A DNA stretch of 39,507 nucleotides from Candidatus Omnitrophota bacterium (GTDB taxonomy: Bacteria; Omnitrophota; Gorgyraeia; Zapsychrales; Zapsychraceae): NCBI GenBank assembly GCA_015233405.1, contig JADFXT010000008.1, positions 75,250 through 114,756 of the forward strand, in the 5' to 3' direction. A program made the translations under genes and the position numbers. Positions 1 to 39,507 of this stretch are shown here, piece by piece. Under the pieces are notes generated by a model. The model did no database searches. It had not been told where the DNA came from and saw only the letters and a list, made by a program, of their open reading frames with translations. Each line of letters starts with the position of its first letter. Positions within the stretch are counted from its first letter, which is position 1.

Positions 1-200
1 TAAAAGCTCAATATTCTTTCTAATTTCTGGATTACCCAGAACAATATCGTTAAAAGCAAAAGTGGTTACAATAGAAGTTTCAGGAACACGTAATCCTTTA
101 ACAATTTTCGCGACAAGATTTCTAAGAATATACGTATTGGATCCTTTTCCGCCGGAGACAAGAATTGACCGCGCTAAAACATGGTCGACATTGATGAAAT
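1..200 (-). other. Start of a pyruvate-phosphate-dikinase N-terminal-like domain (continues outside the window)
   Basis: ILVSGGKGSNTYILRNL, then GLRVPETSIVTTFAF matches the opening of PPDK/PEP-synthase N-terminal (ATP-grasp) domains: GGKGANLxEL, about 12 residues, then VPxGFxxTTxAF. Such domains bind ATP and phosphorylate a mobile His domain. Only about 60 residues are visible, so catalytic residues further on cannot be judged. It continues the series of nucleotide- and phosphate-related modules at this end of the chain. Confidence 0.6.
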
Positions 201-3200
201 GCGGCCTGGCCATGGCCAACGTATTCCAAAGAGCAGCATTTCCAAAATACTGGCTCGTAAGATCAAGCGCATAATTCTTAGGATTGTTCATAAAACCGTT
301 CTGCAAATCCGTCCATATCGCGAATTCCATGTCGTCGGAATCAATGGTTTTTAGAATGTCTTCCACATTTCCATTAAATTCTCCGGATTCCATTCTTCTT
401 AAGGCTTCTTTTTTCTGTTTCTTATGTTCTATGATCGAAGCTTCAATGGCCTTTTCTTCCTCTGCCGTCAGTTGATAGACTGCAAGCGAAGTCTGGTCGT
501 CGTTATAATCCGGATAAATATACGGAATGCCTGTTCTATTCTTGATATCTTCCGCGACGCTCTGGACCGCAGCTTGTGAAACTTCCGGATTAATAGCCTG
601 AACAGTTAACGATCTTGTGACAGGGCTATAATCAATAAACACGTCTTGGATCGAATTATATTTTTCTGCCATATTTCTATATATTGTGGCTAATTTATTG
701 TCTTCTTGCTCTGTCAAAGCATAGAACGTGTAAGAAACTAAATAACTTCTGAAAGATTTTGGCTCACCGATAAATTGAATTCTTGTTTTATCGACGGAAA
801 TCCCAACCTCATTCTGAACGGCCTTCAAAACGGCGTCAGATAAATCTTCACCATCTTTCGGTTTAGCATTGGCGGAAACGGTATATTTATTAGCGTACAA
901 TCTTTTATAGGCCCCGCGTTTTTGAAGCAAGACTCGATTCTTATTGGAATCTAAAACCATGATCTGCAAGGAATGTTTACTGGATTTCTCACCGGTCATC
1001 GGCTTCGGCGAAGAACCTATCTTCTTTAAAATTTTCACAAAATAAAACAAGAAAAGAGGCATGCTTCCGATGGGAATGCCAAAATGAAGAATTTTCTTTA
1101 ACCTTTCCAAAGACTGATTGATAAGGATCAACGATTCCTTGTATCGATATTTCGAGAAAGAACTCCTGATCGTGGTTAAATATTTTTGGAACAAGAAAAC
1201 TGTATCCGTAATATCGTTGATCAATGGCTCGTCAGCCATGATCGGCGCTAAAAGATCAGAAGAGAAAGGAACCTCGACAATTCTAATAGGCTTATTCGAT
1301 TGAGTTTCCAAAATATGCAGAGTCTTTTCGCCTATGAGATTAATCAGGTCAACAAAATGAATCGAATGAGATTTATAGCGGCCAGGATATTTTGCATTTT
1401 CAAGCTGAATCCATTGTTTAAACTCCTCTTCAGTCATCTGCGCCTGGTTATCCTCTAATTCTTTGGCCATCTTACGGGCATTCTGCAGTTCCTCTTCCGT
1501 CGCAAAATACACATAAAGGGCTCGCGATTCCACGTTTTCTTCTTCACTCCATTTGAGTGACCCTTCTTTGCGGATAGGAATAAGCTGGCCTTGTAATTTA
1601 TATTCTTTGGACAAATAAAGCTCTTCTTGTAGAATTTCATTCATCATCATTTCACGATAGGTCATTCCGGACTTCACATGGCCTCCGGCAATTGAAATTC
1701 GGCCCGGCTCAATCCGTTCAAAGAACGTCCTTCTCTTTAAAAGGACTTTCCCATCAGGCGTAATAATGAAAACATTGGATGTTTTATGATGCAATCCTGT
1801 TTCATGAACAAGGTTAGAATTAAGAGCGCTAACAACCTCTTCTTCCTGCGTTTCCGGATTGATCGTAATAATGTCATACCGTTTTTCAGTAAAAGTGCCT
1901 CCCTTATTGATCCATTGAAATAAGAATTCCTCAATTTTTTCCTGGCTTCTTAAATAATCACGTTTATAAGCCGTGCTTAATTTTTCAAGATCCCTCTTTG
2001 CTTGTCTAAAATCTAAAAAGAGTTGTGTGCGCTTGGCATTAACCTCATGCTTCAATTGGAATTGACATGTCGCGCCTATTTCATGAATCAAGGAAGCAGC
2101 CATTTGTTCTGTCGTCGCATATTCGGCAAAGAAATCAAGATCAGAAATAACAATATATTCTTTTTGCTCCTTTTTATCGTTATAAACTGTTGCCAAAACT
2201 CCGCCGATCGGTCCTATTTTGACATCGCCATCTTGTAACTTTTTCCCCAAGGCCTCAGCCATCGTATTTTCTTTAATATTTTTTAAGAAATGCATGGCCA
2301 ATTGAGCTTCCGGAGCATCCAGGCTCATGGAAACGAATTGTTTGAGATTATGGCGCTTCATTTCTCCAACAACATTATCTTCCGTCAGCTTTTCTTTTCC
2401 GGGAACAGGACGGCCGAAATCATCTCTCACAATCACAGAGCTGGTCGAATTCGGTTGCGCAACTTTACTGTCTTTTTGAGTTAATTGTGTTTGCGCTTCG
2501 GCGACAGAAACTCTATCTAGGGAAGAAGCAGGAATACTTTCTTTCTGATAAACCCAATTAATGAGATCCTTTACCGCTATCGGTAATTCTTTCAGGTTAA
2601 GTCTCTTTAAAAGCTTTTCTTTAGTCGGATAGAAACCCTTGGCAAGGCCAAATAATTGCTTCCTTAAACCTGCTGCATCAGCATAACCGGATATCAAATA
2701 AAGCAGATGCAACCAATAACCCTCATCAAGAGCCTGAAGACCAAATTTCCCTTGATGTTCAACAAAAACACCGCCCTTCGCGGAATAAACCACAAGGCGC
2801 CATAATTCTCCGGCGACAGCCTCAATATTCTTCTGCTGCCGTTCTTCCGAATATTTCCAATCAATGGTACTGCTGATGCCTGTAATATGACGATTTCTCA
2901 ATTGCTTATAAAAATGATACCAAGACGCTTTGGCGCGTAATTGCTGATGCGGCTTTTGAATGAAAACAACCTTGATCTCAGGAAGTTTTTTAGCGAGCTT
3001 TCTGATTTCTTTCAAAGAGAATTTAAAATTCTCTATTGTGTTCGACGATCTTTTTTCAAGGATAATATTGTCTGCAACAAACTGCCTTCGTTCAACCGGC
3101 GCTTTCTGGACGATAATTTTCTTCATCAGCTCTGATTCTGTGATATTGGTATATTCTTGAATAGCCTCCATGAGCTGCTTAAAGGTGATGTTATTGGCTT

Positions 3201-6200
3201 CGAATGCTGCTTGTTTTTCTTTAAGTCCTGCAAACGGATTCTTTTCATCATTAAGCTTTAATAAAATGCCTTGTTTCGTTGTAATCTCACAACCCTCCTT
3301 CAAAGCTTTCTCGATAAGACCAATGGTCAAACGGCCCTGGCCGCCGGAAGGAATGATCTTTTTAACTTTACCTTCTAAAAGCCACTGTAATGCACGGTCA
3401 AAGGTGTTAGTATCATCATTTCCACAAATAATCGCAGCAAATACGTCATTAATCTCGTCGGGAGAAACATCAACAGCATTAAGAAGCTTGGCTAAAACCT
3501 TAAGGCTTTCTTCTCTCTTTGAATACAAGTCCATAATGCTCGTTGGGATTTCAACGCCAGCAACAAATCCCTTTCTTTGAGGTCCATATAAAATCAGGCG
3601 GTCGATTTCACCTATAGCGGTCGCAAGGCTTAAGAATCCTCTCTCTTGAATATCTTTTACAGATATTGGATACGCGGCGTAATTATAAACTTTGACATCC
3701 GGGGCATAAGCTCTGAATTCTTTCTCAAACGTTGCCCAGGCCCGTTTCTGAAGAAGCGGGGAATGCATAAGAATTACTGTTTCAGGCTTCAGACCAAGTT
3801 CTTTAAGCTTTTGAACGCTAAATCTAATGTTCTCGTTTGTATTGGTTGAGTTCGGCTCGACAATAATCACGTTTTCAGGTACGCCATTTTCCATAAGAAT
3901 TCTTTTATATACCTCAGCCTCAGCCACATTACCGCCTAAGGATTCGCCATCAGCCGCTCGAGTGCCAATGCCGCCGGAAACAATGATCCTAGAAATACCG
4001 CCTTTTTTATAAAGTTTTGCTGCCTCAACCGGCGTACGTTTGTCGCCTGATCCTAAAACCATTAAAAGGTCTGCCTGTTTAGGCAATGCTTCTCGCACAA
4101 CTAAGAAATCAATCAACGCTTTCTTGACGGTGGCTGCTTCCACTTCTGCCGTAATGTAAAGTGTCTTACCTTCTCTTCTAGCGGTCAAAGAAACCGGCTT
4201 GCCATTTAATAATTCCAAAGCAAACGCAGCCAAAACTCTTTCACGTTCTTTCATATCCTGCATGGCCATGAGATCAATATCGGTATCCACAATCGCGTCC
4301 GTAATGCCTTTGCCTTTATATTTCTCGACGATCTCATGAATGCGGAAGAACAATTCAGCGACAGCTTCCGGAGAAATATTCATCATGTTATGGAACAAAC
4401 CAAAAGAATACGTGCGGATAACACTGTTATAATTTTTCTGGAATGCTTCCGTCAGCCGGCCCTTCAAAATATCGCTTAATTTCTTAAAATTCTCTTCTTC
4501 GCTAACCTTCAAAAGCCCGGGAGGCGTCATCAACCGGCCAAGGCGTGTTTTATAAAAATCCTTGTCTTCTGGCTTGCGGGTGCGTTCGGCGTGAAGCGTA
4601 TCAATTTTCTCCGGCGTTAAAGCATTGCCAACCTTGCGTCCGCTTAAATCACAAGCAGCCATTAAAAGAAGCATGTCGCGCACTTTTTTCGAATTGAACT
4701 TCTTCTTTAACAAATCTTTCGGCAGATAATCCACTCCCATATCGCCGGCAAATCCATGATTACCGACCAAGAATGCCGTGCGCTTAATAATGTCTTTCGA
4801 GACACCTAACTTCTTTAAGATCTTTTTCACTTCTACTGCGCCGGTTTGATTATGGATCTTATCGCGATAACCGGTTAATGCGCCGATATCGTGGAAGATC
4901 ACTGCGCCACGGAAAAGCTCTTGGGTTTCAAAATCCCAGGACTGATAAATATCGACGAGCTTTTTCATACGTTTAATATATTCGTCTTTATTGACCTTCT
5001 GATCTGCCGTAAACGTCTTATACATGCCGTCATAATCGCCGCGGACAAACATCTGCATGAACGCAATGACCTTAAGCACGTGAATATTCTTACGTTCAAC
5101 GATGCGTACAATGTTAGCGATCAACTCCGTGATCCAGAGGCGGTCTCTTTCTGAAACGGCATTGGCCATCACACTTGAAATTAAGTCTGTGATCTGACGA
5201 TAATCACTCATTATCGCTGCGAATTCTTCGACGTTCTTTGCCGCGAACCCGGCCGCCGCCACAATCTTAAGCGGCATAGTTTTTCCGACAACGCTAGCAA
5301 ACTTAGTTCCCCAAATCCCGCCGGCAACCCAAATGATCAGATCAGGATATTGTGCGCGTAATGCTGTAATCGACGAGCTTTCGGCTCCTAACGCCGCAAC
5401 TGTATCCGCATATGTTTTAAGAACAACGCCATTGACGCCGGCACTGACAGCATCAGAAATGCGCATCATAAGCTGCCCGCCCTTGGCATTGATTTCAGCT
5501 AAAATTTTAACGGCTGGGAATTCTTGACGTAATGCCGCGACTTCATATTGAGACATTACTGGCCCGATCAAAATACTGGCGCCGTTTTGAGCAGCTTTTC
5601 GGGCGGAATTGTAATCCTTGACGAAAAATCCTATCGGAGCCTGTGGATTATTTCGACGGGCTTGTTTTAAAGCAGTCAATTTTTCCAAGCTCGGGATAAA
5701 TCCATTTTTTACAACAATACCTGCCATGGCAGCTAATTGTTTACTCGAGGCCCAAGCCGCGCTTTTACCCTTGCCGGTATGTAAGCCAACCTCAATGAGG
5801 CGGCTAGAAATATCGGCCGCTGTGGCAAGTTCTCCCCTCCAGCCACGGATAAAGGAAAGCTTCTCCAACAGCGGCCTCATAAAACCAAATCTTTGATTTG
5901 CTGCTTTAAGATCGGTTGCGGCATTTAAAACAGGACTTTTGATAGAATGTTCTGTGATCTGGCCGCTGACCAAGTTCTTCGTCATGACCGGAATATATGT
6001 GTTCATGTGCGGGAAATAAGTAAAGTTAAAACTATCAAACGTAAACTCGCCTAGATCAACCGTTTCAAATTGTTTGAGGATCTTTATGATCTCATCAAAT
6101 TTCTCGTCGCCAGGATAATTAGCGAAATATGCCAAGCTGATATGGCCTGTAAAATCACGAACAGACACCCCTATATGTTTCTTGATCACAGATTCCATGC

Positions 6201-33200: not shown

Positions 33201-36200
33201 CTTGGATGATCTTGCGTTCGCGTTCCGGCATGAATTGCATTTGCGATAAAGCATCCCAAATACCCTTAAATTTCATATTGGCGAATTCCACCGGCATGTT
33301 GATTTTTTTGCTTAAATAAACATTTTCCTTCGTAGAATCTTCCGTCAGAACACCTTTTGCGATCAAGTTATTTAAAATTTCAGCGCCCTTCGGGTCAGCT
33401 TCAGTAAATTTCGATTTCGAAACAAGTATTCGTTCAGATTCGGGGATGGTTGGCGTTTGCGATAACATATCCCAAACACCCTTAAATTTAGCATCTTCGA
33501 GTTCCTTGGGCTTGCTGACTGCGCTACTAGTTAAATAAACATTTTCCTTCGTAGAATCTTCCGTCAAAACGCCTTTTTTGATCAACTTATTTAAAATTTT
33601 AGGACCATTCTTCGTGTCCGCTTCAGTAAATTTCGATTTTAAAACAAGGACTGGTTTAGCTTCCAACACAGCTGGCGTCTGCGATAAAATATCCCAAATA
33701 CCTTTAAATTTCCTATCTATGAATTCTTCCGGCATGCTGACTTTGCTGCTTAAATAAACATTTTCCTTCGAAGAATCTTCCGTCAGAATGCCTTTTGTGA
33801 TCAACTTATTTAAAATTTTAAGACCATTTTTTCTGTCCGCTTCAGTGAATTTCGATTTTGAAACAATGCCGGTAAGCGGAATTTCATCCGTGGCATTGAT
33901 GTTGCGCGTGTCAATCTCGGGAAGTTTCGAAGACAAAGCGGAAACTCTCTGTGACTCAAACGTAGAGACGATTCTCGTCGGCAATATCCCTTCGGCGAAT
34001 GTCTTAAAGATACCAAAAACCGTCTTATATTGATCATCAAGAACTTTGGTCGGCATCTCATTAATCGTTTTATCAGTAAGAAATTTTTCGATAGATTCTG
34101 TAATTTTCTCTGACGCCTCACCATAACCTGAAATCAACGTGTCAGCCTTACCGTATTCTTCATTCATGAATATTTTCATATGCTCAGCCCAGGTTAAAAT
34201 CGCATTAACCGTGGCTTTACCTTCAGTGCTTAATCCTTTCTTATGATGCAAAGCCGCTAAAAGCTCGCGAATCAAGGAATCCATATTGGCGAAAAAGATC
34301 GCGCGGACTTGTTCATCGCCGGACTTGTTCGTTTCAGAAAGTTCATTAGGAGCAGAGAATAGCCCGGCACGGATTTGATCCCGGATTTCTTTATAAATTT
34401 TTCTATCCCGCTCTGAAACCTTTTCATTATCTTCATCCGACAATTTCTGGAAAAAGACCATCAACAAATTTCTGATATAGTTCGAGACTTTAGACGTGAT
34501 GGAAGAGGATGTTTGATTTAGCTGATTAAATTCGACGACCAATTCAAGTTTATCTATCAAAGACGGCGTTGCCGTTCTCTTTATCTCATCATATTTATCA
34601 ACAAAGGCTTGAATATCTTCAGATGCCCCTAAAGCCTTGTAACCAGCAATAAGCCCTTCAATCAGCTTATTCATGCGTTCTATTCTTTGTTCGTTGACTA
34701 GAGCAATCTTTCGCCCGACATCTCCCTTATTACGAGTATTACGGTTAACACCATGTGATAAGAAGTCGCGGGTCCATCTTTCAGCTCCGACGACAATAAC
34801 ATCAATATCACCTGTAAAATCCCAAGCCTTGGCAGTGAGCGGAAGAGAAACAACAATCGACGGCCTTGTTCCTTGAACCGTTAACGGTTTGATCTGCTCA
34901 TCGGTTGTTGACCCGTTGATCACGCCAATATTACCTTTACCAAACTTTTTCTCAAGCTCAGCAACAATTGTTTTTTGATCGCCCGGATTATCTACAAAGA
35001 TAACCGCATCACGATTACTTAATTTAAGCTCAGCAATCTGAGCAGCAACATCTTCTTTTTGGGTGAAAATTTCAATCTCTTTGCCTTTTTCTTTCTTTCC
35101 AAATTGCGTAAAAAAGTCGCTTTCCTCTAAAAGCGCAATGGTTCTGCCGGTCACGATCTCCATGATAATTTCAGCCCCACGCTTAGTTGCAGAAACCGCG
35201 ACAATTTCTCCACCGCCTGAAAACGCCTCATAAATCGGATTTTCCCTATAAGTCATGTCGGAAATATGAATATCTCCGATCTTCAAATTTTTACCAAATT
35301 TTTTATTATAAACTTCAGTCAAAGCGACTTTATACGCCAGACTGCTTGCTAGCATTTCTTGCTCAATCCGGCCGCCGCGGGATGTCGGTCTTAATTCAGG
35401 AAGATCATTACCGTTCTTATCCTGGCCTAAATCAAGTTCAGCGCCGCTTGTCCCTGAAGCAACGGCGCGCACAACATCAAAAAGAATGGATTCTTCATAA
35501 CCTTCATCTTTATAATAGTCCTTCGCACGTTGCGATATAATGATTTTTTCCGGGCCTGTTTGAATGCTATCGCCAAGCGATTCTCTAAAGAAAACCCTTT
35601 CATTATTAGCTTGAGCCGCTTCAAATTCCTTAATAGAAGCCACTTCTTTGATGCCATCAAGGCCTTCTGTTGTTACATCTCCCCAGGTAAAATCAAGCCC
35701 TTGGACATTGATTTCGCGAGTTAATTTCTGGGTTTTGTTGGCAATATCCAAAGCCACTTCATTCTGGGCGACTGTTGTATCTTTAGAAACAATAAATGTC
35801 TTTTCGCTTCCGGCCACATCGTCGATTTCATCAACCAAGCGGGAACTTGTTTTCTCTGCCTTACGAGACTTTATGCCGTCTTCAATTTGAACGAAAATAC
35901 TTTTCTGTATTTCTTTGCGACGGACTGCTTCTTCGGAATCACCCTTTATAGTTTTTTCTAGAAGCGCATCAAATGTATGGGGAAGATGGCCGCGGATATC
36001 GAGAGAAGTTACAACAAAAGCTTTTCTATCATTTAAAATAGTAGCAATGTCTTGGGCAACATTGACAGCTTCTTCCATTTTATTTTCCTTCAAAAAGTCC
36101 TGATATTTCTTGATGTACGCATCTAAATTAATCAGGCGCCCACCAGTCAATTTCTGGACCATGTCAGCATATTGAACAGGGAACTTGGTATTTTCAGCCG

Positions 36201-39200
36201 AAGAAAGAGCCTCAACGATTTTGGCAGCCTCGGCTGAGTTACGAACCATTAAAGTCACAACTTTATCTTCAATAGCAATTTTATAACTACCACCTGCAAT
36301 AAGACCAAGGGTCTTACCGGCGGCGTTGGGAGCAATAACGACATGGTTTAAAAGGATTTCATTGAAGACGGCTGGCTGAAGGTCTTTCAACTGGAAGTCT
36401 GGTCCCTCTATTTCTCGAATTCTATCTAAGAACGCAGCTGCTTTTTCACTAATCTTTCTGGTTTCTTTAACTTCTTTCTTCTTTTTACCTTTTCCCTCCA
36501 TAACTGTTACTTTATAATCAGGATAATTTGAAACCATCGCAGCGTCGGATTCGCCAGGGCCATTGATACCTGTTGAGCTGCTGGACAGATCAAAAACAGG
36601 AATGCTAATAATCGGCTGTTCAGGCTGAACCGGCGTAATGACTTGAGGAGCTTCAGGAACTCTCGGAGCAACTTCAGCCGGCTGTGAAGTTACCGGTGTC
36701 TGTTCTGTAGTCGACGGCGTCACTTCTTCCGGAGTTGATGTCACCGCCGGAGTTTCAATTTCTTGAGCTGTCGGCTCTGAAGCAACTGCAGGCGCTTCAG
36801 TTTCTTCTACTGGTCTCTGGTCTATTGTCTCTGGTCTATGGTCTACAGTCTCTGGTCTCTGAGCTGCTGTCTCTGGTCTATAGTTTGATGTTTCCGCGGT
36901 TCCATTTCTAAATACAACTTTCGGTTTCTTTAAGCCTGCGGCTTCTTCTTTCTTTTCCGGCACGGCTGACTTATCGATGACCGCACCTTTTTCACGAAGA
37001 GCTTTGAAAATGTTCTCCGGTAATCCGGCTTTCGGTGTCACGATCAAGGCTTTTTCTGCAATATCTTCTACCGCTAATAAGCTGCCGGAAACTTTAAAGG
37101 CCTTTTCGCCTTCTGCGGCAACGACTTTTCTAAATTTATTTAATTTTGCATCAAAGGCATAAACGGTCTTATCGCTAAAGCTTCCGGTTGCTGCTAAGGC
37201 GATGGCGCCATCTTCTGGGCCGCTGACGACCATAATAGATTCATACTGGGCGACGCTCGGAAGCATGGCGAGCTTTTTATCCCAATCCATGGAGCCTAAC
37301 GTGACTTCGATCGGCTTCCACTGACCGGCAGCTTGTTTCTGCGGCAGAGCGCTCTTCGGATTAAGCACGGAAGAATCAATGACATATTTTCTCTTGGCCT
37401 CGTCGCCATATTTCGCCTTAAAGCCTTCTCTGATTTTTGCAATGACATGTCCCGGAACGCCCTGATATGGCATCAAGACCAAACCTTTCGCATCAGCAAG
37501 CTGGCTTGCCGTAATCGGTTCGCCAACTAATTTCCCGCCTTGGACCTGATAGAACTGCCATTCATCTTTAATTAAGGCCACATAAACGGCTGTGCCGGTC
37601 GGAAGCGCTGAGGCGATTCCACTGGCTTTTGCGATCATCTCTTCTTCGGTCTGAGCATCTTCGGCAGCCAAAACAACAACTTGATGAACATCTAAAAGGT
37701 GGAATTGAAGGACAGTTGCTGTTAATTTTTCATTCAGTGTCTGGGCAGCGCCTAAACGAGTTTCAATCTGGCTCCAGGCTTCAGCTACAGCGCCGGCTTC
37801 ACCAGCGACGGACATGGTCGTGTCCACGATCGAAACGCCGTTACCGAGGAAGGCAATGGTCTGTCCGGTTTCTTCAGACGATTCAATAAACTCAAGCGCG
37901 TCGTCATCCGTTAAAACAGTGTCTTTCTTGACATAGATCTTATAATTTTCAAGGCCAGCAATATCAAATGTGTAAATGCCCATTTCCGCCTCAACGCTCG
38001 CCGGTCCTTTGGCAATAGCACCATAAATGGCTTTTAACTTGTCTTCATCGGCGGAGAATCCGGCTTTATATAAGGCATATTCAAACGGTGAAACCTTGCC
38101 CGAATAAGCGCGGAAGACAGAACCGGGAGTTTTAGGACGACGGCTGCTGATTCTGTTTGTTGTTCTTTTTTCTGCCGCGCTCTTCCCTGCATCAGAAGAA
38201 CGAAAAACCGGTTTTGGAGTTGTTAACGCTTGAATACTATTTGTTTGCATAGCGGCAACAACTTCTTTTCGAATTCTTTCTTCTTGGTATGGAGCATTAA
38301 GATTTGTGGCTTTAGCAATAATTCCTGGTAATGTCGCCGCAGGAACAACCGGCGCTACCGTCGGAACTGCTGGAATTAATGTTTCGGTTCTGCCATTAGG
38401 AGTAACTGTAACATGCTTATTGATTTCGGTAGTCGAAACGGTTAAGGCGTTGTCGCTATCAGAAGCTTCCACCTGCATTACTTTCAATTCTTTCTCAAGA
38501 TCTGCATATTCAGCTTTCAAGAATTCAGGAATATTTTCTTGCTCCAAGTCGCTTAAGAAAGCATCCATTTCAGTTGCCATAAGTTCATCATCGGATGTGT
38601 TATATCCATTCGCTGCTAAAAACTTAAGAAAATTTTCTAACTTTCCTTGCTTTTTAAGTTCTTTATATTTCGCGTCAACTTTCTTCCTATATTCACTATC
38701 CGTAAAATAGCGACCATGCTTGAGTTCATGCATAATATCTTTTATTTCTGCTTTTGGACCTAAAGCAAAGAGACTAAATTTTTCTTTTTGTGTATATTTT
38801 CCTTCAGCGTTCTTTTGTATAACTTCCCAATCTTTCTCCAAAATCTTTATTAAATGTCTTTCTGATTCATCAAGTGTAATTTCTGCCTTTTCTTCTGCCG
38901 CTAAAAGGGCATTCAAGGCTCTAACAAAATCCTCGCCTTTATAAGCCACAGCCTTTGCTCTAAGCTGTGTTTTTTCATTATCTTTTAAAATCTGGTTATC
39001 TTTTGTTTCAAGGAAATTGATAACTCGTCCGAGAGCTCGAGAAAATCCTGTCTCATTTTCAGCGCCATACTTTAAGCCATAAAGCTTTTTCTTGGTATTT
39101 TCCAAAGCTACAAATTCATCAGACGAAACTTGATGATCAATAACTTCTTGCGGAGTTCTAAAAACATTATGTTTATTACTTGCTTCATACTTCTTAATAG

Positions 39201-39507
39201 AATTTTTTGCATTAATAACAGCTATTTGGGCTGTTTTCTGGCTTACATTCATCGTTCTCGGCTTAACAGACGCTAATTGTTTGCCTTTATCAGAGGAAAT
39301 ACCGCGAATCTGGCTTAAGCTAAATTTCTTATTTTTATTTGACGCAATATTTAAAATTTTTCCTTCTAAATTAACAGTAATATTTAACCCTGATTTCTCA
39401 TTAACATATGTTCTTGTTCCATTCTTCTTATCAGTCTTGATTGTGGCATGAGATAATACTTTTGTTAAAACACGGTAAACATCTTCTACCGTGGCTTGAT
39501 TTCGATC
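1..39507 (-). CDS. Interior of a giant multi-domain envelope-associated protein (at least 13,169 residues; both ends outside the window)
   Basis: One minus-strand frame (codons at plus-strand n = 1 modulo 3) is open across the whole window. The window is exactly 3 x 13,169 bases. Translated piece by piece, the frame gives coherent protein nearly throughout: ATPase, protease, glycosidase, transglycosylase, membrane and phosphoesterase-like motifs all fall in this same frame. The other frames give only short products. No initiator or stop is visible, so true length is unknown; the visible part alone would be about 1.4 MDa. There are at least four hydrophobic regions (31.9-31.4, 29.7-27.8, about 15.3 and 13.5-12.9 with 10.5-9.5 kb), so the product should cross the inner membrane repeatedly. 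Pro/Thr-rich linkers separate modules. Giant ORFs of this kind are known from Omnitrophota. Alternatives, such as cleavage into pieces or internal starts, cannot be excluded. I am sure of the open frame and less sure of the individual domain names below. Confidence 0.95.
200..590 (-). other. Helical connector (unassigned)
   Basis: Charged helices (EEEKAIEASIIEHKKQKKEA) are followed by Asp/Asn/Trp-rich helices (FAIWTDLQNGFMNNPK, ALWNTLAMARPHF). It leads into the GGKG-containing segment and may be the start of the same domain. Confidence 0.35.
590..980 (-). other. Nudix-like domain, copy 2 (degenerate Nudix box)
   Basis: SLQIMVLDSNKNRVLLQKR is followed by YTVSANAKPKDGEDLSDAV and LKAVQNEVGI. 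The pattern matches a Nudix fold close to isopentenyl-diphosphate-isomerase-like members. In the box the initial Gly is Ala, Arg is Lys, the next Glu is Ala and one Glu of EE is Asn; the first Glu, last Glu and Gly are kept. It looks catalytically compromised. It lies just upstream of the PPDK-like segment. Confidence 0.5.
980..1380 (-). other. Connector between the two Nudix-like domains
   Basis: About 130 residues containing strands (KPIRIVEVPFSSDLLAP), helices and one hydrophobic helix (HFGIPIGSMPLFLFYFVKIL, near 1.04 kb). The hydrophobic stretch might be a membrane or amphipathic helix, but is short and flanked by lysines. No motif is seen. Confidence 0.35.
1380..1810 (-). other. Nudix-like domain, copy 1 (degenerate Nudix box)
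   Basis: NVFIITPDGKVLLKRR, then SIAGGHVKSGMTYREMMM... EILQEEL has the strand-box-helix layout of Nudix hydrolases. Against the consensus Gx5Ex7REUxEExGU, the first Glu is Met, the Arg is Asn and the first Glu of EE is Gln, while REU's Glu and the second Glu remain. Metal binding is therefore likely weak. Nudix enzymes hydrolyse nucleoside diphosphates linked to other groups; this copy may be a binding module. A second Nudix-like domain follows. Confidence 0.55.
1810..2880 (-). other. Helical and linker region with IHEIGA helix (unassigned)
   Basis: The segment begins with helices rich in aromatic residues (LHLLYLISGYADAAGL). A Ser/Gln/Thr-rich linker follows (2.53-2.42 kb), then alpha/beta sequence (VKIGPIGGVLATVYND) and AASLIHEIGATCQF (2.10-2.04 kb) with His-Glu at 2080-2085. 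The helix looks like a zincin helix lacking the second His. The rest is a charged coiled coil. Function unknown. Confidence 0.35.
2880..3465 (-). other. DUF218/YdcF-like domain, copy 2 (diverged)
   Basis: AAIICGNDDT corresponds to the GSGD loop, ALQWLLEGKVKKIIPSGGQG to the helix and SGG strand, and NIILEKRSSNTIENFKF to the ExxSxNTxEN motif. VVFIQKPHQQLRA matches the strand after it. The first loop is altered (GND instead of GSGD) and an insert of about 40 residues separates the halves, so this copy is more diverged than the upstream one. A tandem duplication followed by divergence is the simplest explanation. Confidence 0.65.
3560..4090 (-). other. DUF218/YdcF-like domain, copy 1
   Basis: ADLLMVLGSGDKR (GSGD at 4042-4053) is followed by YKKGGISRIIVSGGIGT, then AEVYKRILMENGVPENVIIVEPNSTNTNEN and, later, VILMHSPLLQKRA. 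These are the DUF218 landmarks in order: a GSG-type loop, a strand ending in SGG, the GVPxxxIxxE segment and the S-x-NTxEN motif. The family includes YdcF, SanA and ElyC, which act in cell-envelope homeostasis. Their chemistry is poorly defined. All conserved positions seem present. The next copy follows after about 30 residues. Confidence 0.78.
4100..4600 (-). other. Linker region between the HD and DUF218 domains
   Basis: About 165 residues. A helical part (FKKLSDILKGRLTEAFQKN, FGLFHNMMN) is followed by a mixed part (GKTLYITAEVEAATVKKALIDF). No catalytic motif is seen. The helical half could be the end of the HD domain, which is all-helical. Confidence 0.4.
4600..5170 (-). other. HD-domain phosphohydrolase-like domain
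   Basis: AVIFHDIGAL carries the HD pair (4888-4893). Further expected ligands are His in KIHNQTGA (4852-4854), His in VGNHGFAG (4756-4758) and a late Asp in MAACDLSG (4648-4650). The order HD, H, H, D matches HD superfamily metal-dependent phosphohydrolases, which act on nucleotides, cyclic dinucleotides or (p)ppGpp. Metal-ligand residues appear intact. The exact substrate cannot be inferred. It follows the barrel-like segment and precedes two YdcF-like domains, so this part of the chain resembles a string of phosphate-handling enzymes. Confidence 0.75.
5190..5920 (-). other. TIM-barrel-like, phosphate-binding-type segment
   Basis: Alternating strands and helices include IGFFVKDYNSARKAAQNGAS, ILIGPVMSQYEV, VKILAEINAKG, DAVSAGVNGVVLKTY, LIIWVAGGI and KIVAAAGFAAKN. 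The last two resemble the GG and AG loops that bind phosphate in (beta/alpha)8 barrels such as thiamine-phosphate synthase or KDPG-type aldolases. Which enzyme it derives from is not clear and no catalytic Lys or Asp can be assigned with confidence. It sits between the 2H and HD domains. Confidence 0.4.
5990..6540 (-). other. 2H phosphoesterase-like (2'-5' RNA ligase / cyclic phosphodiesterase) domain
   Basis: Residues about 10990-11173. SFHMTICDVD (HMT at 6415-6423) and TGHISLAYF (HIS at 6136-6144) are two HxT/HxS motifs about 93 residues apart, each in a beta strand. This is the defining arrangement of the 2H phosphoesterase superfamily, whose two His act on 2',3'-cyclic or 2'-5' phosphodiesters. 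The stretch between has a helix (RKAQVKAALEEIG) and a strand as expected. The catalytic residues are present. It opens the series of soluble phosphate-related domains at this end of the visible chain and presumably works in the cytoplasm. Confidence 0.7.
6560..7600 (-). other. Unassigned segment with HEAVEAEA helix
   Basis: After the last WGW unit come charged helices. A beta-rich patch (PYETGRVKVLNWINNKKVYLIEQ) and FVHEAVEAEAQTR (near 6.83 kb) follow. The latter begins like a zincin helix but the second His of HExxH is Glu, so metal binding is doubtful. A run of helices with His (LHLAAVKAHEQF) follows. It directly precedes the 2H-type domain. Function unknown. Confidence 0.35.
7600..9430 (-). 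repeat. Coiled coils with six [IV]WGW-type repeats
   Basis: Long Lys/Glu/Ala coiled coils alternate with a compact motif: (I/V)WGW(I/V), then about six residues, GLQ-(D/E)-(A/V)-F or similar, then (Y/F)G-x-(E/K)-A-K. WGW lies at 9172-9180, 8740-8748, 8509-8517, 8266-8274 and 7690-7698. A diverged copy (IWALIEKD...FYGDEAK) starts at 7921. Spacings vary from about 77 to 144 codons. The two most upstream coiled coils (ESIMADEAKK... and ESIMADEAKR...) are near-duplicates with a 420-base offset (CATCAGCCAT at 9381 and 8961). I do not recognise the family. The motif may be a small helical domain used for self-association. Confidence 0.8.
9530..10440 (-). other. C-terminal membrane cluster after the GT48-like domain
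   Basis: Hydrophobic segments include APFAALLLVLLPSL, PVMFFIAISVILMEA, LWELVMAFGYYVTMIP, GSVGALLTIVGIF, GWGVSLFFTSWIGPLVTLPYL, VFISSLLLLIASRL and ALTFVNWALFITMV. There are about eight helices with short charged loops. The arrangement of a cytosolic catalytic part followed by several helices mirrors glucan synthases, whose helices form the channel for the nascent chain. The following region is soluble and charged, so the chain returns to the cytoplasm. Confidence 0.75.
10440..12780 (-). other. Large domain with blocks resembling GT48 1,3-beta-glucan synthase
   Basis: Residues about 8910-9689, between two membrane clusters, as in FKS1/callose synthase. Several blocks match in order. NLRAWLSKKYNEY recalls LRLWASxRxQT. 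LADYGYVMMAFRREN with DLKVVIEY recalls KFxxVVSxQxY and PxLxxAYxDE. NKNGGIAIN with YDAHVRAYRG recalls NQNHAIIF and NYLEEALKMR. IVNPSFMIWG and SQETFTQDVQR (10771-10803) recall GxREHIFTG and QETSFVTxxQR. WGRPN (10594-10608) with NEDVGYD (10480-10500) recalls YGHPD and SEDIFAGF. No single block is decisive; the order and spacing are the evidence. GT48 makes beta-1,3-glucan from UDP-glucose and has been considered mainly eukaryotic. A diverged, possibly inactive relative is likely, and convergence is possible. Confidence 0.5.
12850..13570 (-). other. Multi-pass membrane region with a tandemly duplicated 68-69 codon module
   Basis: Hydrophobic helices run through WLHMFLMRILGPVFALSIV, then two related modules: ILVRCISGLGAVIGIIL... 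SYLVPRLILG and ILVRFINGLGFFVGAIL... LYFLPRLIFG. In the DNA, ACCAGG is shared at 13415 and 13211, and AAAGAATTCGTGA at 13355 and 13148, offsets of 204 and 207 bases. Further helices follow, ending in SGFWITVGILFLLPTVTAS. This cluster comes just before the large GT48-like soluble domain, as in glucan synthases where membrane helices flank the catalytic part. Confidence 0.75.
13570..15240 (-). other. Cytosolic-type helical region (unassigned)
   Basis: About 560 residues of charged helices lie between the single membrane anchor and the membrane cluster. Phrases such as ELKKALLEKTDSDNAERIA and LRALRYFLGMPTHQ suggest a helical solenoid. In eukaryotic 1,3-beta-glucan synthases a large cytosolic region also precedes membrane helices, but I cannot align this part. 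No catalytic motif is seen. Confidence 0.4.
15240..15360 (-). other. Single transmembrane helix
   Basis: WHFGVVVAVGLAVIFFIALF followed by positively charged residues (KGLRKKLNRN) is a good membrane anchor with a cytoplasmic C-terminal side by the positive-inside rule. It separates the beta-rich outer part from a charged helical region. Confidence 0.8.
15420..17640 (-). other. Mixed beta-rich region, probably extracytoplasmic (unassigned)
   Basis: A short coiled coil (RSELQRLRALKAQLQ) is followed by about 700 residues of strands rich in Tyr, Asp and Asn, e.g. GEVNEYYIDQQY and EYFYSNFNVTIYPY. It ends just before a single hydrophobic helix, so it is likely on the outer face of the membrane. I recognise no catalytic motif. 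Given the neighbours on both sides it may bind or sense polysaccharide. Confidence 0.35.
17640..17865 (-). other. Pro/Thr/Ala/Glu-rich linker
   Basis: About 70 residues consist chiefly of Ala, Pro, Thr, Val, Gln and Glu (EEPREEAPATRTTPAQ). The linker joins the glycosidase to the next region. It is disordered-looking and has no motif. Confidence 0.65.
17860..18720 (-). other. Clan GH-A glycosidase/transglycosidase domain, GH72-like
   Basis: Residues about 6930-7215. The start, IRGFTYSP, then DIRLLREMGVTVIRTYY and LDALSANGIKVIINF, follows the beta1-beta3 pattern of GH72 beta-1,3-glucanosyltransferases (RGVDYQP... LLKELGINTIRVY... DAGIYVILD). WEFGNEYNYH carries the Asn-Glu acid/base pair (Glu at 18394-18396, residue 7038). 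YFSETSA carries the second Glu, the expected nucleophile (18118-18120, residue 7130). GATFMTFSDEWWK completes the barrel. Both catalytic Glu are present. GH72 enzymes cut and rejoin beta-1,3-glucan; bacterial relatives in GH2, GH5 or GH17 are alternatives. It lies upstream of the possible glucan synthase in the same chain. Confidence 0.75.
18720..20430 (-). other. Beta-rich region before the glycosidase domain (unassigned)
   Basis: About 570 residues. Clear strands (GTGDLIIYNPEFAL, YVWRGWYEGGWVSLLL) alternate with short helices. A second part (YGVQLVRKLGTTWLAPKVFAVLSFEG, near 19.6 kb) is repeated-looking in style. Close to the end the chain reads ALVHEANGGAHQ (near 18.8 kb), a His-rich motif of unknown role. 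Carbohydrate-binding function is plausible given the adjacent glycosidase, but not shown by any motif. Confidence 0.35.
20430..21450 (-). other. Beta-strand-rich segment, possible beta-barrel or sandwich
   Basis: Alternating polar/hydrophobic strands with Gly, Asn and Ser turns run through the segment, for example SVKAEVGTADRRVGLNATRG and GNWTFGISETF. Strands of nine to eleven residues, many ending in aromatic residues, are typical of outer-membrane barrels. An outer-membrane location is uncertain, because this would be the middle of a chain with further inner-membrane helices downstream. Confidence 0.35.
21620..23420 (-). other. Long alpha-helical/coiled-coil region (TolC-like appearance)
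   Basis: About 600 residues of long helices. They include LALRQLALAEDQ... RDQLFFYASLQQYG near 22.6-22.5 kb, and a strong Ala/Lys/Glu coiled coil (KAQKEAKKASDEAKKQYQA, near 21.75 kb). Long paired helices with Ala-rich seams and an aromatic Gln segment resemble outer-membrane efflux proteins (OEP/TolC), but no clear TolC signature is seen. It follows the adaptor-like segment, which would fit a channel component. A plain structural coiled coil is an equally good reading. Confidence 0.4.
23420..25590 (-). other. Beta-rich extracytoplasmic-type region (unassigned)
   Basis: About 720 residues consist largely of short strands with frequent Asn, Asp, Gly and Tyr turns. Recurrent phrases include GRYEGAWATMRLTEG, VKTDNSGRM-type turns and YYSDDLLPP. 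The pattern recalls beta-propeller or beta-sandwich repeats of secreted proteins. I see no catalytic motif. It sits between the adaptor-like segment and the long helical region. Confidence 0.4.
25590..26010 (-). other. Barrel-sandwich-hybrid-like segment plus coiled coil
   Basis: RSPVAGKIKSIVEGDNG, then short beta strands with Gly turns, and LTAGNAVSANQVIGV follow the pattern of a lipoyl/HlyD-type barrel-sandwich hybrid (PxxGxV... GxxVxxGQxIG). Immediately downstream, a heptad-rich helix (ESNLEKKQKELEKKKREA, 25.80-25.74 kb) runs into more helical sequence. Barrel-sandwich domains next to helical hairpins are characteristic of membrane-fusion/adaptor proteins of tripartite exporters and of some M23-type wall proteins. 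Here no M23 motif is visible. A role as an adaptor in the periplasm is an inference. Confidence 0.45.
26010..26760 (-). other. Unassigned region after the transglycosylase
   Basis: Residues about 4250-4500 begin with helices (YTSNRMKFIAQQVAKEQ) that may be the end of the SLT domain. They pass into a mixed alpha/beta part with strands such as IPIVYIMITKYRE and a loop with GLPTDGVVLMLSQDD. I do not recognise a family. It leads into the barrel-sandwich-like segment. Confidence 0.35.
26760..27125 (-). other. Lytic transglycosylase domain (SLT, GH23-like)
   Basis: Residues about 4128-4249. LALIYHESGFDP contains the catalytic Glu of the ES motif (27067-27069, residue 4147). GLGQVIPST follows, corresponding to the GLMQxxPxT motif; then DPYTNVLVSAYYLA matches the conserved NxxxGxxYL block and LALAAYNQGT matches the AYNxG block. 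All four landmarks occur in order with normal spacing, so the fold and active site look intact. Such enzymes cleave peptidoglycan between MurNAc and GlcNAc with formation of 1,6-anhydroMurNAc. It lies downstream of a multi-pass region, which suggests periplasmic exposure. In this chain it could open the cell wall for the rest of the machine or attack the wall of another cell. Confidence 0.88.
27225..27840 (-). other. Periplasmic entry segment with Thr/Pro/Glu-rich linker
   Basis: After the last hydrophobic helix the chain has aromatic and His-rich helices (27.8-27.45 kb), then ALSLSSIVNFLTAPASAETP, which has a signal-like Ala-x-Ala. A linker of Thr, Glu, Ala and Pro follows (27.40-27.23 kb). 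This leads directly into the lytic transglycosylase domain. No catalytic motif is visible. Confidence 0.45.
27840..29260 (-). other. Multi-pass hydrophobic (membrane) region
   Basis: Residues about 3416-3890. Successive hydrophobic stretches lie near 29.15-29.09, 29.05-28.98, 28.91-28.79, 28.61-28.49, 28.32-28.24, 28.11-28.04 and 27.98-27.86 kb, separated by charged loops. The first (KKIALALGFVMALP...VVNAATN, 29086-29151) has the n-, h- and c-regions and AxA-type site of a signal peptide, although it is internal. A large charged loop (28.78-28.62 kb) is helical. The region follows the M50-like and low-complexity parts and precedes the transglycosylase, so it plausibly delivers the following segments to the periplasm. 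Signal-like plus hydrophobic small-residue helices recall type IV pilin (VirB2) layouts, but the resemblance is weak. Confidence 0.7.
29267..29572 (-). CDS. Candidate nested ORF, 101 codons, in a different frame inside the giant gene
   Basis: ATG at 29570-29572 opens a frame shifted relative to the giant ORF and ends with TAA at 29267-29269. It has an almost ideal ribosome binding site (AAGGAGG, six bases before the ATG). The product reads like an ordinary soluble protein: a short basic start, a strand-rich part (KYFIATARN, RIKVYLVSHDD), then an amphipathic helix (GVWQELESDAH). Its codons are conventional (GAC, GAG, CGT, ATC), while the giant frame over the same bases reads as a Ser/Leu/Thr-rich string with CTA, ATA and GTA codons. 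It may be a genuine overlapping gene, or a relic of an older reading frame. I do not recognise its family. The giant frame is also open here, so both could be translated. Confidence 0.4.
   Translation of the reverse strand: MVCINTNPRSLKKTTPQFEIKHFVEISDNKYFIATARNLDTNRIKVYLVSHDDRIYERQGIKGVWQELESDAHQFIVRVIKEARNNKTVPCYSTNTTVRLN
29577..29585 (-). promoter_or_regulatory. Perfect Shine-Dalgarno sequence before the nested ORF
   Basis: The minus strand reads AAGGAGGTG followed by CTTT and then ATG. The core AAGGAGG is complementary to the 16S rRNA 3' end and sits six bases from the start codon. In the giant frame the same bases encode Gln-Gly-Gly-Ala. I noticed no other start with a core this complete and this well spaced in the window. 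Confidence 0.55.
29815..29990 (-). repeat. Two degenerate in-frame repeats of 39 codons
   Basis: TSSSVSLEVRANNKNK and TSSSLSLGLRENNKNG are adjacent copies. At the DNA level, a block beginning CGCGGA at 29823 recurs at 29940, an offset of 117 bases, with about one change in six. The unit encodes a Ser-rich start and a basic helix ending in RILRN or NLIRN. Confidence 0.7.
30250..30570 (-). repeat. Two degenerate in-frame repeats of about 56 codons
   Basis: NVVKSGYSW...SSKVLEVGARGVS and NVVKSVYRM...SGKVLGLGSVSVS are successive diverged copies. Their DNA equivalents start with GAACCTTAC at 30447 and at 30279 on the plus strand, an offset of 168 bases. The copies match over most of their length with scattered substitutions, so this is an old tandem duplication inside the low-complexity tract. 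Confidence 0.7.
31060..31440 (-). other. Proline-rich linker after the M50-like domain
   Basis: The chain runs from a basic stretch (residues after the protease) into a segment rich in Pro with Val, Leu and Asn, then a Gly-rich patch (GGFGGGN, near 31.11 kb). This is a probable extended linker leaving the membrane protease. No domain is recognised. Confidence 0.55.
31440..31895 (-). other. M50/site-2-protease-like intramembrane metalloprotease domain
   Basis: Residues about 2540-2689. A first hydrophobic helix (31.88-31.78 kb) leads into FTHELGHIIP, with HELGH at 31756-31770 (residues 2580-2584). A second hydrophobic stretch rich in Gly, Leu and Ile follows, then NLLPLPKTDG, with its Asp at 31468-31470. 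HExxH near a membrane helix plus a distal NxxPxPxxDG motif is the signature of M50 zinc proteases (RseP, SpoIVFB, S2P). The two His and the Asp bind zinc and the Glu is the general base, so all expected catalytic residues are present. The domain should sit in the inner membrane. It could process this giant chain or other membrane proteins. The domain is compact and lacks an obvious PDZ insert. Confidence 0.8.
31900..33215 (-). other. Long alpha-helical region preceding the membrane protease (unassigned)
   Basis: Residues about 2100-2535 are almost wholly helical, with recurring patterns such as ITESE, SETEFL and SKEEV at helix starts. They resemble a solenoid of degenerate helical repeats related to the three clear copies just upstream. 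No membrane segment or active-site motif is visible until the M50-like part. It may form a scaffold or substrate-binding arm for the protease domain. Confidence 0.4.
33215..33870 (-). repeat. Three in-frame repeats of about 73 codons (SKFTEAD...LTEDSxKENVYL)
   Basis: Three consecutive copies each contain KSKFTEAD, then ILNKLI, then LTEDS, KENVYL and finally KFKGIWD or a close variant. The matching DNA block starting AAATAAACATTTTCC on the plus strand lies at 33314, 33533 and 33752, so the period is 219 bases (73 codons). The copies differ by substitutions and one small in-frame indel. Each unit looks like a small helical domain with a winged, two-strand tip. The function is unknown. The near-identity at DNA level points to fairly recent tandem duplication. 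Confidence 0.85.
33870..34600 (-). other. Helical region after the SecA-like core (unassigned)
   Basis: The chain continues as long charged helices, roughly residues 1636-1880. In SecA the equivalent position holds the helical scaffold and wing, so this may be the remainder of that domain. The last part (about 34.0-33.87 kb) is less helical and leads into the threefold repeat. I see no catalytic motif. Confidence 0.4.
34600..36460 (-). other. SecA-like ATPase (preprotein-translocase motor-like) domain
   Basis: Residues about 1017-1636. APNAAGKT (36310-36333, residues 1059-1066) is a good Walker A in the position of SecA's TGEGKT. It is followed by a strand comparable to SecA's HVVTVNDYLA. 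VDEID (35821-35835) corresponds to the SecA DEVD Walker B. A central part with SRGGRIEQE and VSATKRGAEII resembles the SecA stretch leading to MTGTA. VIVVGAERW (near 34.79 kb) and NKGDVGR (near 34.73 kb) match SecA's VIGTERHES and RQGDPGS in order. The usual ATNMAGRGTD motif is replaced by a diverged SLPLTAKAWD, and the arginine-finger region is altered, so ATP turnover may be weak or absent. SecA drives proteins through SecYEG; here it would be tethered in cis to envelope domains. A generic SF2 helicase is the alternative. Confidence 0.65.
36540..36910 (-). repeat. Pro/Thr/Glu-rich linker with short RPET repeats
   Basis: The frame encodes three close copies of RPET followed by a diverged RPVEE (36.81-36.89 kb; NYRPET, AQRPET, DHRPET). 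About 90 residues follow, dominated by Pro, Thr, Val, Glu, Ala and Ser. In the DNA this shows as repeated TGGTCT-type units on the plus strand. Such sequence is typical of flexible, extended linkers between folded modules. It directly precedes the SecA-like ATPase. No function beyond spacing is proposed. Confidence 0.7.
36960..38200 (-). other. Unassigned alpha/beta region
   Basis: Residues of roughly 435-850. After a short basic linker (several Arg and Ser near 38.15 kb) the chain becomes a regular alternation of hydrophobic strands and amphipathic helices, for example VVVLAAEDAQ near 37.67 kb and IMVVSGPEDGAI near 37.22 kb. Hydrophobic beta strands followed by small-residue loops suggest a series of alpha/beta sub-domains, possibly repeated. 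I see no catalytic motif. It is followed by a low-complexity linker that separates it from the SecA-like ATPase. Confidence 0.35.
38470..38939 (-). other. Zincin-like (HExxH) putative metalloprotease segment
   Basis: The chain reads DIMHELKHGRYF, placing HELKH at 38716-38730 (residues 260-264). About fifty residues downstream comes ATEMDAF, whose Glu (38569-38571, residue 313) could be the third zinc ligand. HExxH followed by a more distal Glu near an Asp/Ala-containing helix is the layout of gluzincin-type metalloproteases. The segment between is helical and charged, which fits. There is no membrane segment next to it, so this is not an M50-type enzyme. A peptidase function is inferred from the motif only; the family is not identified. 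It lies just before an unassigned alpha/beta stretch and the SecA-like ATPase. Confidence 0.5.
38940..39507 (-). other. Helical leader segment of the giant protein (unassigned)
   Basis: Residues 1 to about 189 of the visible chain. The first part alternates charged and polar residues with a few short strands. The rest is helical and rich in Lys, Glu and Asn. I do not recognise a family. It precedes the zincin-like segment and may be a structural part of that domain. No signal peptide or membrane segment is visible here, and the real N-terminus lies beyond base 39507. Confidence 0.4.

Follow-up and report, generated by a model that had tools for sequence, protein, structure and literature searches.

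Giant open reading frames are already known in Omnitrophota (PMC10066038). As given in the available text of that paper, the giant frame of Velamenicoccus archaeovorus encodes 39,678 amino acids with 42 predicted transmembrane helices, and its peptides were detected, with a three-fold increase in attached cells (Seymour et al. 2023, PMC10066038). Giant genes encoding up to about 85,800 amino acids and linked to wall degradation were described by West-Roberts et al. 2023 (bioRxiv 10.1101/2023.11.21.568195, as cited in PMC12057145). The available text of PMC8542988 makes no mention of giant proteins, and the word 'giant' occurs 0 times in the available parts of PMC13153191 and PMC12583861.

The stretch of DNA analysed here (the window; 39,507 bases, C46:75250-114756) ends at the end of contig C46 and belongs to a metagenome-assembled genome of 2,379,669 bases (2.38 Mb) in 47 contigs, 84.3% complete with 4.24% contamination. 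Frame 0 of its minus strand contains 0 stops in 13,169 codons, against 503 to 1,308 stops and a longest open stretch of 366 codons in the other five frames. For the same DNA, a first-order Markov model predicts 1,701 stops, and the log10 probability of zero is about -760. Furthermore, GC1 exceeds GC2 in 101 of 102 blocks of 300 codons along the giant frame. The sequence-only reading had claimed an uninterrupted frame of at least 13,169 codons; it proved even larger. Following it along the contig, as that reading had advised for finding both ends, gave the stop, at C46:22822, and left the start side open at the contig edge. The 17,475 residues past the window contain about 20 further recognisable domains. 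The total of 30,644 codons (91.9 kb) is a lower bound, the 5′ end lying beyond C46. No 5′ end or signal peptide was seen in the visible frame, a tRNA search found none, and an Rfam scan at gathering score revealed no RNA family in the window or in loci L003, L004 and L005. A simple Kyte-Doolittle threshold, rather than a trained predictor, marks about 54 strong hydrophobic segments in the chain. The frame, longer than 20 kb and with several putative transmembrane segments, an SLT and a GH-A domain, resembles the Omnitrophota giant ORFs, as the sequence-only reading had supposed, and a genome of the same family, Candidatus Omnitrophota bacterium OFTM390 (G018), also carries a giant frame. The window frame is confirmed as the front part of a single unbroken giant frame of the Omnitrophota type.

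In the hunt for the 5′ end, the starts of 39 of the 46 other contigs were inspected, and in 33 of these the ends as well. Elsewhere in the genome the final 300 contig bases have matches only about 14-36 bases long, and the 5′ end of the giant gene was therefore not located. On C46 itself, at C46:478-15967 (-) (L002), a tandem pair of frames, 2,297 and 2,883 codons long and with nothing above the Pfam cut-off, starts in each case with a conserved, signal-like N-terminal module of about 350 residues. This module has 45 matches in the same genome and occurs at E <= 1e-20 in 87 of 285 Omnitrophota genomes; the OFTM390 genome, which carries the longest giant frame, lacks it. Six frames with the module in the present genome contain 0-2.4 Cys per 1000 residues. 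Two frames with the module leave their contigs downstream, at C44:3-1427 (-) and at the end of C45 (+); they are candidate 5′ ends of this giant or of other genes.

The giant gene faces mutS and mutL, which are downstream of it in convergent orientation. Identified by their sequence, they share 75% and 65% identity with the pair in a same-genus genome, G007, where a giant frame adjoins mutL. MutL was found in 23 of 32 family genomes. The region past mutL was taken from 20 further genomes (G005 left out); G003 and G020 have fewer than 200 bases there, leaving, with the present genome and G007, 20 readable genomes. Twelve of these 20 carry a convergent frame, 4,000 codons or longer, whose stop lies within about 9 kb of mutL: the present genome (30,644 codons), G018 (44,856; JAJDCB010000011.1), G017 (22,742), G012 (16,007), G019 (10,142), G013 (7,714), G007 (6,660), G030 (5,640), G031 (5,440), G028 (4,997), G026 (4,475) and G011 (4,363). 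These lengths are lower bounds for the ten frames that reach a contig end; those of G026 and G028 are closed. Other frames lie between giant and mutL in G017, G030 and G031, and runs of N occur inside the G028 and G006 frames. Shorter convergent frames of 1,712-2,183 codons were found in G010, G006 and G025. No frame of at least 1,500 codons appears past mutL in G002, G008, G009, G014 and G015, where the sequence past mutL spans just 4.7-7.1 kb in G009, G014 and G015 and the G008 listing covers 14.6 of 20 kb.

The locus is fixed beside mutL, and its contents differ strongly between genera. At E <= 1e-3, this giant and that of G007 have only about 100 near-C-terminal residues and a kinase domain in common. 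Comparison of tiles revealed scattered patches common to this giant and those of G018, G017, G012, G011, G031, G026, G013 and G028. Within genera the giants are more alike, with 133 tile matches between G012 and G013 and 101 between G030 and G031. Given this distribution of tile matches, the contents vary strongly between genera and less within them. The top match between this giant and OFTM390 pairs residues 14170-14440 (L005:11437-12249) with L088:9853-10656 at 52% identity. A zincin-like module near residue 14,533 has counterparts in G011 and G018, and a weak one in G019; in this giant (L005:10837-11439 (-), residues 14440-14640) and in that of G011, it is preceded by a 'YPAT[ML]P' linker. 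On another contig of G007, a 2,517-codon frame (L220, G007:C241) has a PEP-binding domain 45-49% identical to that of this giant, and may belong to the G007 giant as another fragment.

The chain was scanned against Pfam in 40 overlapping tiles of 1000 residues. Up to residue 10,900, nothing but the SLT domain and one GH barrel exceeds the cut-off (Table 1). Most of the module series proposed by the sequence-only reading was recovered in the window: the SLT, 2H, DUF218, Nudix and PPDK_N modules are supported, the last with its remainder outside the window. The SLT domain matches PDB entries weakly (E 0.014) and keeps the catalytic Glu region. The GH-A barrel also held, reaching 22.5-22.8 bits with Glyco_hydro_2_C, just above the cut-off of 21, and matching GH158 in the PDB at E 8.5e-6; a paralogue at residues 22026-22325, outside the window and below the Pfam cut-off, was found by similarity to it. 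For the M50-like protease the HELGH motif is present and the profile score falls short of the curated cut-off, as does the match for the HD module. The suggested GT48-like module was not borne out, no glucan synthase family being among the window-tile matches at E <= 0.1.

Table 1. Features of the giant frame in the window; nucleotide positions are those of the window.
Feature	Residues	Window position	Strand	Remark
Giant frame, part in window	1-13,169	1..39507	-	Whole frame C46:22822-114756
Cysteine-free part	1-8,699	13411..39507	-	Cys 0 vs 109 expected
HExxH (HELKH) patch	229-322	38542..38823	-	Similar to patch in G013 giant
Helicase/SecA-like region	~1040-1640	34588..36390	-	Weak assignment
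Three tandem repeats	1881-2133	33109..33867	-	~74 residues each
M50-like motif HELGH	2570-2606	31690..31800	-	PF02163 E 1.2e-4, below Pfam cut-off
SLT lytic transglycosylase	4140-4235	26803..27090	-	PF01464 E 4.6e-17
GH-A type barrel	6935-7215	17863..18705	-	WEFGNE and SET present
2H phosphodiesterase-like	10971-11034	6406..6597	-	PF08975 E 9.5e-7
Possible HD domain	11526-11589	4741..4932	-	E 0.017, below cut-off
DUF218/YdcF-like	11813-11931	3715..4071	-	PF02698 E 4e-28; PDB YdcF 8.6e-5
Nudix	12850-12929	721..960	-	PF00293 E 4.4e-10
PPDK_N ATP-binding domain, first 51 residues	13119-13435 (whole domain)	1..153	-	PF01326 E 4.2e-50
Opposite-strand open frame, 366 codons		8699..9799	+	Pfam at E <= 0.01: none; probable coding-strand shadow

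The proposed SecA-like motor is a weak assignment. Its region shows GKT, DE.D and SAT in order, read by eye, and aligns weakly with the SecA Walker A in hhalign local mode (E 0.017; six column shuffles gave 0.14-0.86, and an MDH control 0.32). The SecA_DEAD profile has no match in this giant at E <= 0.01, and hmmsearch with ten SecA proteins of the family matched none of the giants searched at that threshold, the best value being 0.021 in G018. An AlphaFold model of the region (pLDDT 38) was unusable. Residues 1061-1787 resemble a G028 frame at 22% identity. Within the family, SecA_DEAD matched huge frames that are not mutL-proximal, in G030:C117 (6,471 codons) and G031:C21 (3,695). The giants that West-Roberts and colleagues described in 2023 reportedly contain a divergent SecA-like (SecA DEAD) domain.

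The rear half of the chain contains about 20 enzyme or repeat domains. Over the whole chain, the families above the Pfam cut-off are SLT, GH2-type barrel, 2H phosphodiesterase, DUF218, Nudix, PPDK_N, PEP-utilizers mobile (twice), PEP-binding, deaminase, LOG/lysine decarboxylase (twice), M50, HEAT, Dus, PRK/uridine kinase (twice), GNAT, Rce1, rhomboid, TPR, histidine phosphatase, FGGY N and C, Ldh_1 N and C, bacterial sugar transferase, ribulose-P epimerase, radical SAM and SPASM. The motifs seen comprise the Glu and AAYN in SLT, NE and SET in GH-A, HEFAH in M50, PGGxGT in LOG, RHGET in the phosphatase, CxxxCxxC in radical SAM, GGPSGSGKTT in the kinase and EExxxR in Rce1. In NCBIfam, the MDH module scores 441.5 bits, above the malate dehydrogenase equivalog cut-off of 271, and nine other modules have no listed match above cut-off (radical SAM: best 25 of 53).

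The embedded MDH is a captured copy of the genome's own housekeeping gene. The genome also encodes a stand-alone MDH (C16, 340 aa), an Ldh_1 frame (C45, 338 aa) and a Dus (C5, 358 aa). The embedded MDH, at residues 25,905-26,230, is full-length, 68% identical to the stand-alone MDH and 56-62% identical to the copies of six relatives. In a tree of ten rows, two of them duplicates (the C45 frame, which gave no MDH-module match, was left out), it is sister to the stand-alone MDH (0.944), inside a branch with the same-genus copy. It extends to the final residue of the stand-alone enzyme, whose TAG stop has no counterpart, and the frame continues. Comparison of the two copies gave pS 0.687 and pN 0.197; the embedded MDH is under purifying selection. 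All other modules are 24-50% identical to stand-alone relatives (29% for Dus and its own stand-alone gene, 24-43% for LOG and PEP-binding and the own relatives found), and only MDH was traced to a donor. Within the chain, two PRK kinase copies (residues ~21,511-21,750 and ~27,868-28,107) have 90% DNA identity over 840 bases and a dN/dS of 0.31. The LOG duplicates gave 0.22 (dS 1.7), and a 72-residue pair 0.14 (dS 2.6, near saturation). For short tandem repeats the values were 0.48-0.59, and the GH pair had reached saturation. In the intragenic duplicates, as in MDH, synonymous change exceeds nonsynonymous change, and parts of the frame are thus under purifying selection.

The front part of the chain is free of cysteine (Table 1). 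The background, 179 ordinary frames of 250-599 codons from the same genome, has 12.6 Cys per 1000 residues, with 8 of the 179 lacking Cys. Residues 8,700-20,000 contain 24 Cys vs 142 expected, and the remainder 63 vs 134. Trp and Tyr stay within about 1.5-fold of background, and residues 1-8,699 are slightly poor in His (log2 -0.68). Avoidance of nonsense mutations was rejected as the cause of low Cys, because Trp and Tyr codons, just as close to stops, are not depleted. With expectations taken from the present genome's background rather than their own, other giants gave 20 of 564 expected Cys (G018), 1 of 201 (G012), 2 of 127 (G019), 0 of 97 (G013) and 112 of 286 (G017). The depletion is not general: the giants of G007, G030, G031 and G028_4997 have 7.0-7.5 Cys per 1000, G028_8764 5.9, G011 4.4 and G026 1.3. 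MutL has 8.3 in G007, 16.4 in G030, 18.1 in G031 and 8.0 in G028. The absence of Cys suggests that the front part is exported out of the cytoplasm, although the Cys content of the G007 and G028 giants, close to that of their own MutL, counts against this reading. Absence of Cys with Trp and Tyr untouched would offer a simple sequence test for parts that leave the cytoplasm. A literature search found no title on cysteine loss in giant proteins; the West-Roberts preprint lay outside that search, and no priority is claimed.

Embedded modules were also compared with stand-alone counterparts. The embedded MDH keeps 1 of 6 Cys (binomial p 0.015 at 68% identity), and pairs of stand-alone MDHs at 59-77% identity have 2-5 Cys in common. 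From stand-alone to embedded, the Cys counts are 3 to 0 in M50, 4 to 2 in Dus, 0-1 to 0 in the sugar transferase, 0-3 to 0 in the kinase, 2-5 to 2 in PEP-binding and 0-1 to 1, with no loss, in LOG. MDH and M50 thus show a clear loss, which LOG does not. Along the frame, Cys increases in the direction of mutL in this giant, G017 and G018 (KS p 7.6e-12, 1.5e-7 and 1.6e-4) and in G028_8764 (3.5e-4); no such rise was found in G007, G030, G031, G011, G026, G028_4997 and G028_4648. The recognisable domains of this giant cluster in its rear part. In G017, strong matches such as LpxR (E 2.9e-72) occur close to the visible front, and the gradient of recognisability thus fails there; in three 5,000-residue stretches of the 44,856-residue G018 giant, matches at E <= 1e-5 numbered none, none and one family. 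The mutS-mutL site might be a standing gene trap, in which housekeeping genes are copied in, lose their stops, become part of an exported chain and later shed their Cys, so that Cys density would record residence time and growth at the 3′ end. We consider this proposal unlikely; if true, each lineage would carry a collage weapon built from its own enzymes.

We favour, as moderately probable, a genuine Omnitrophota giant gene for an exported, membrane-threaded multi-enzyme surface chain, a weapon or coat, grown by in-frame gene fusion. Given its lytic transglycosylase, its glycoside hydrolase and its lack of Cys, the front part would lie outside the cytoplasm, with the chain threaded through the membrane and held by membrane segments. 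The SLT and GH domains might cut wall polymers of neighbouring cells, and the chain, as a surface weapon or coat, probably serves to attack other cells, a putative function. The rear part would be enzymes of uncertain use hung in one chain, and growth would proceed by in-frame fusion of whole genes after loss of their stop codons. Malate dehydrogenase, dihydrouridine synthase and radical SAM enzymes normally need the cytoplasm, which counts against this explanation. Alternatively, the product might be a polyprotein, made as one chain and then cut into enzymes by its embedded proteases (two M50-like, Rce1/CAAX, rhomboid-like and five HExxH patches). HExxH occurs 7 times vs 0.43 expected (two M50-type sites and five others), and is likewise in excess in G017 (6 vs 0.91), G019 (4 vs 0.46) and G018 (4 vs 1.46). 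In favour also are the second M50, with NLLPVPPLDG besides HEFAH, the Rce1 motif, a rhomboid family above cut-off, and enzyme domains packed almost end to end, MDH being followed directly, at residues about 26,220-26,250, by the sugar transferase. However, the rhomboid-like domain lacks the usual GxSG motif. The model of the zincin-like module has a pLDDT of 56.5 and no Foldseek match in the PDB at E <= 0.001, and its G018 relative is without HExxH. Moreover, HExxH is absent from G007, G026, G006, G025 and two of the G028 frames, and the embedded proteases may act on prey proteins instead. We regard the polyprotein as doubtful.

A decaying or neutral frame, a pile-up of gene copies with little function, would fit the low similarity, at the locus, between this giant and other genera's giants or the G007 fragment, as well as the eroded look of the rhomboid-like and adenosine-deaminase-like domains. 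It is very improbable in view of the absence of stops over the whole frame, the purifying selection on the PRK and LOG duplicates and MDH, the known motifs kept in most enzymes and the likeness of same-genus giants (G012/G013, G030/G031). An assembly artefact such as a chimera, or a reassigned stop codon, is scarcely credible: the contamination of the MAG and the open contig end speak for it, but table 11 yields MutS, MutL and SecA frames of normal length in this genome, assembly errors add stops and would not delete about 1,700, and comparable frames exist in genomes of other species.

Giant genes of Omnitrophota are known but mostly unreadable, and the one described here has datable pieces: a captured MDH whose likely donor sits in the same genome, and a recent duplicate within the chain, at a locus of fixed synteny. 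How giant genes are built thus becomes testable, and the fixed locus, the missing Cys and the captured MDH deserve further attention. Very long bacterial proteins also include NRPS/PKS megasynthases and repeat adhesins; unlike these, this giant has no condensation, adenylation, ketosynthase or classical adhesin-repeat domain among the matches listed for the 40 tiles. With the giants of West-Roberts et al., known here via citation (PMC12057145), it has in common very large size and putative wall degradation. It is most like the Omnitrophota giant ORFs as the available text of PMC10066038 describes them, in phylum, a frame far longer than 20 kb, many hydrophobic segments, poor conservation and a probable role in attacking other cells or adhering to them. 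The V. archaeovorus peptides are the closest experimental support, in a relative. The word cysteine has 0 occurrences in PMC10066038. Whereas the giants in the available descriptions have few annotated domains, with adhesin domains among them, the present one carries about 20 recognisable domains in its rear half, a housekeeping-gene copy and a Cys-free front part.
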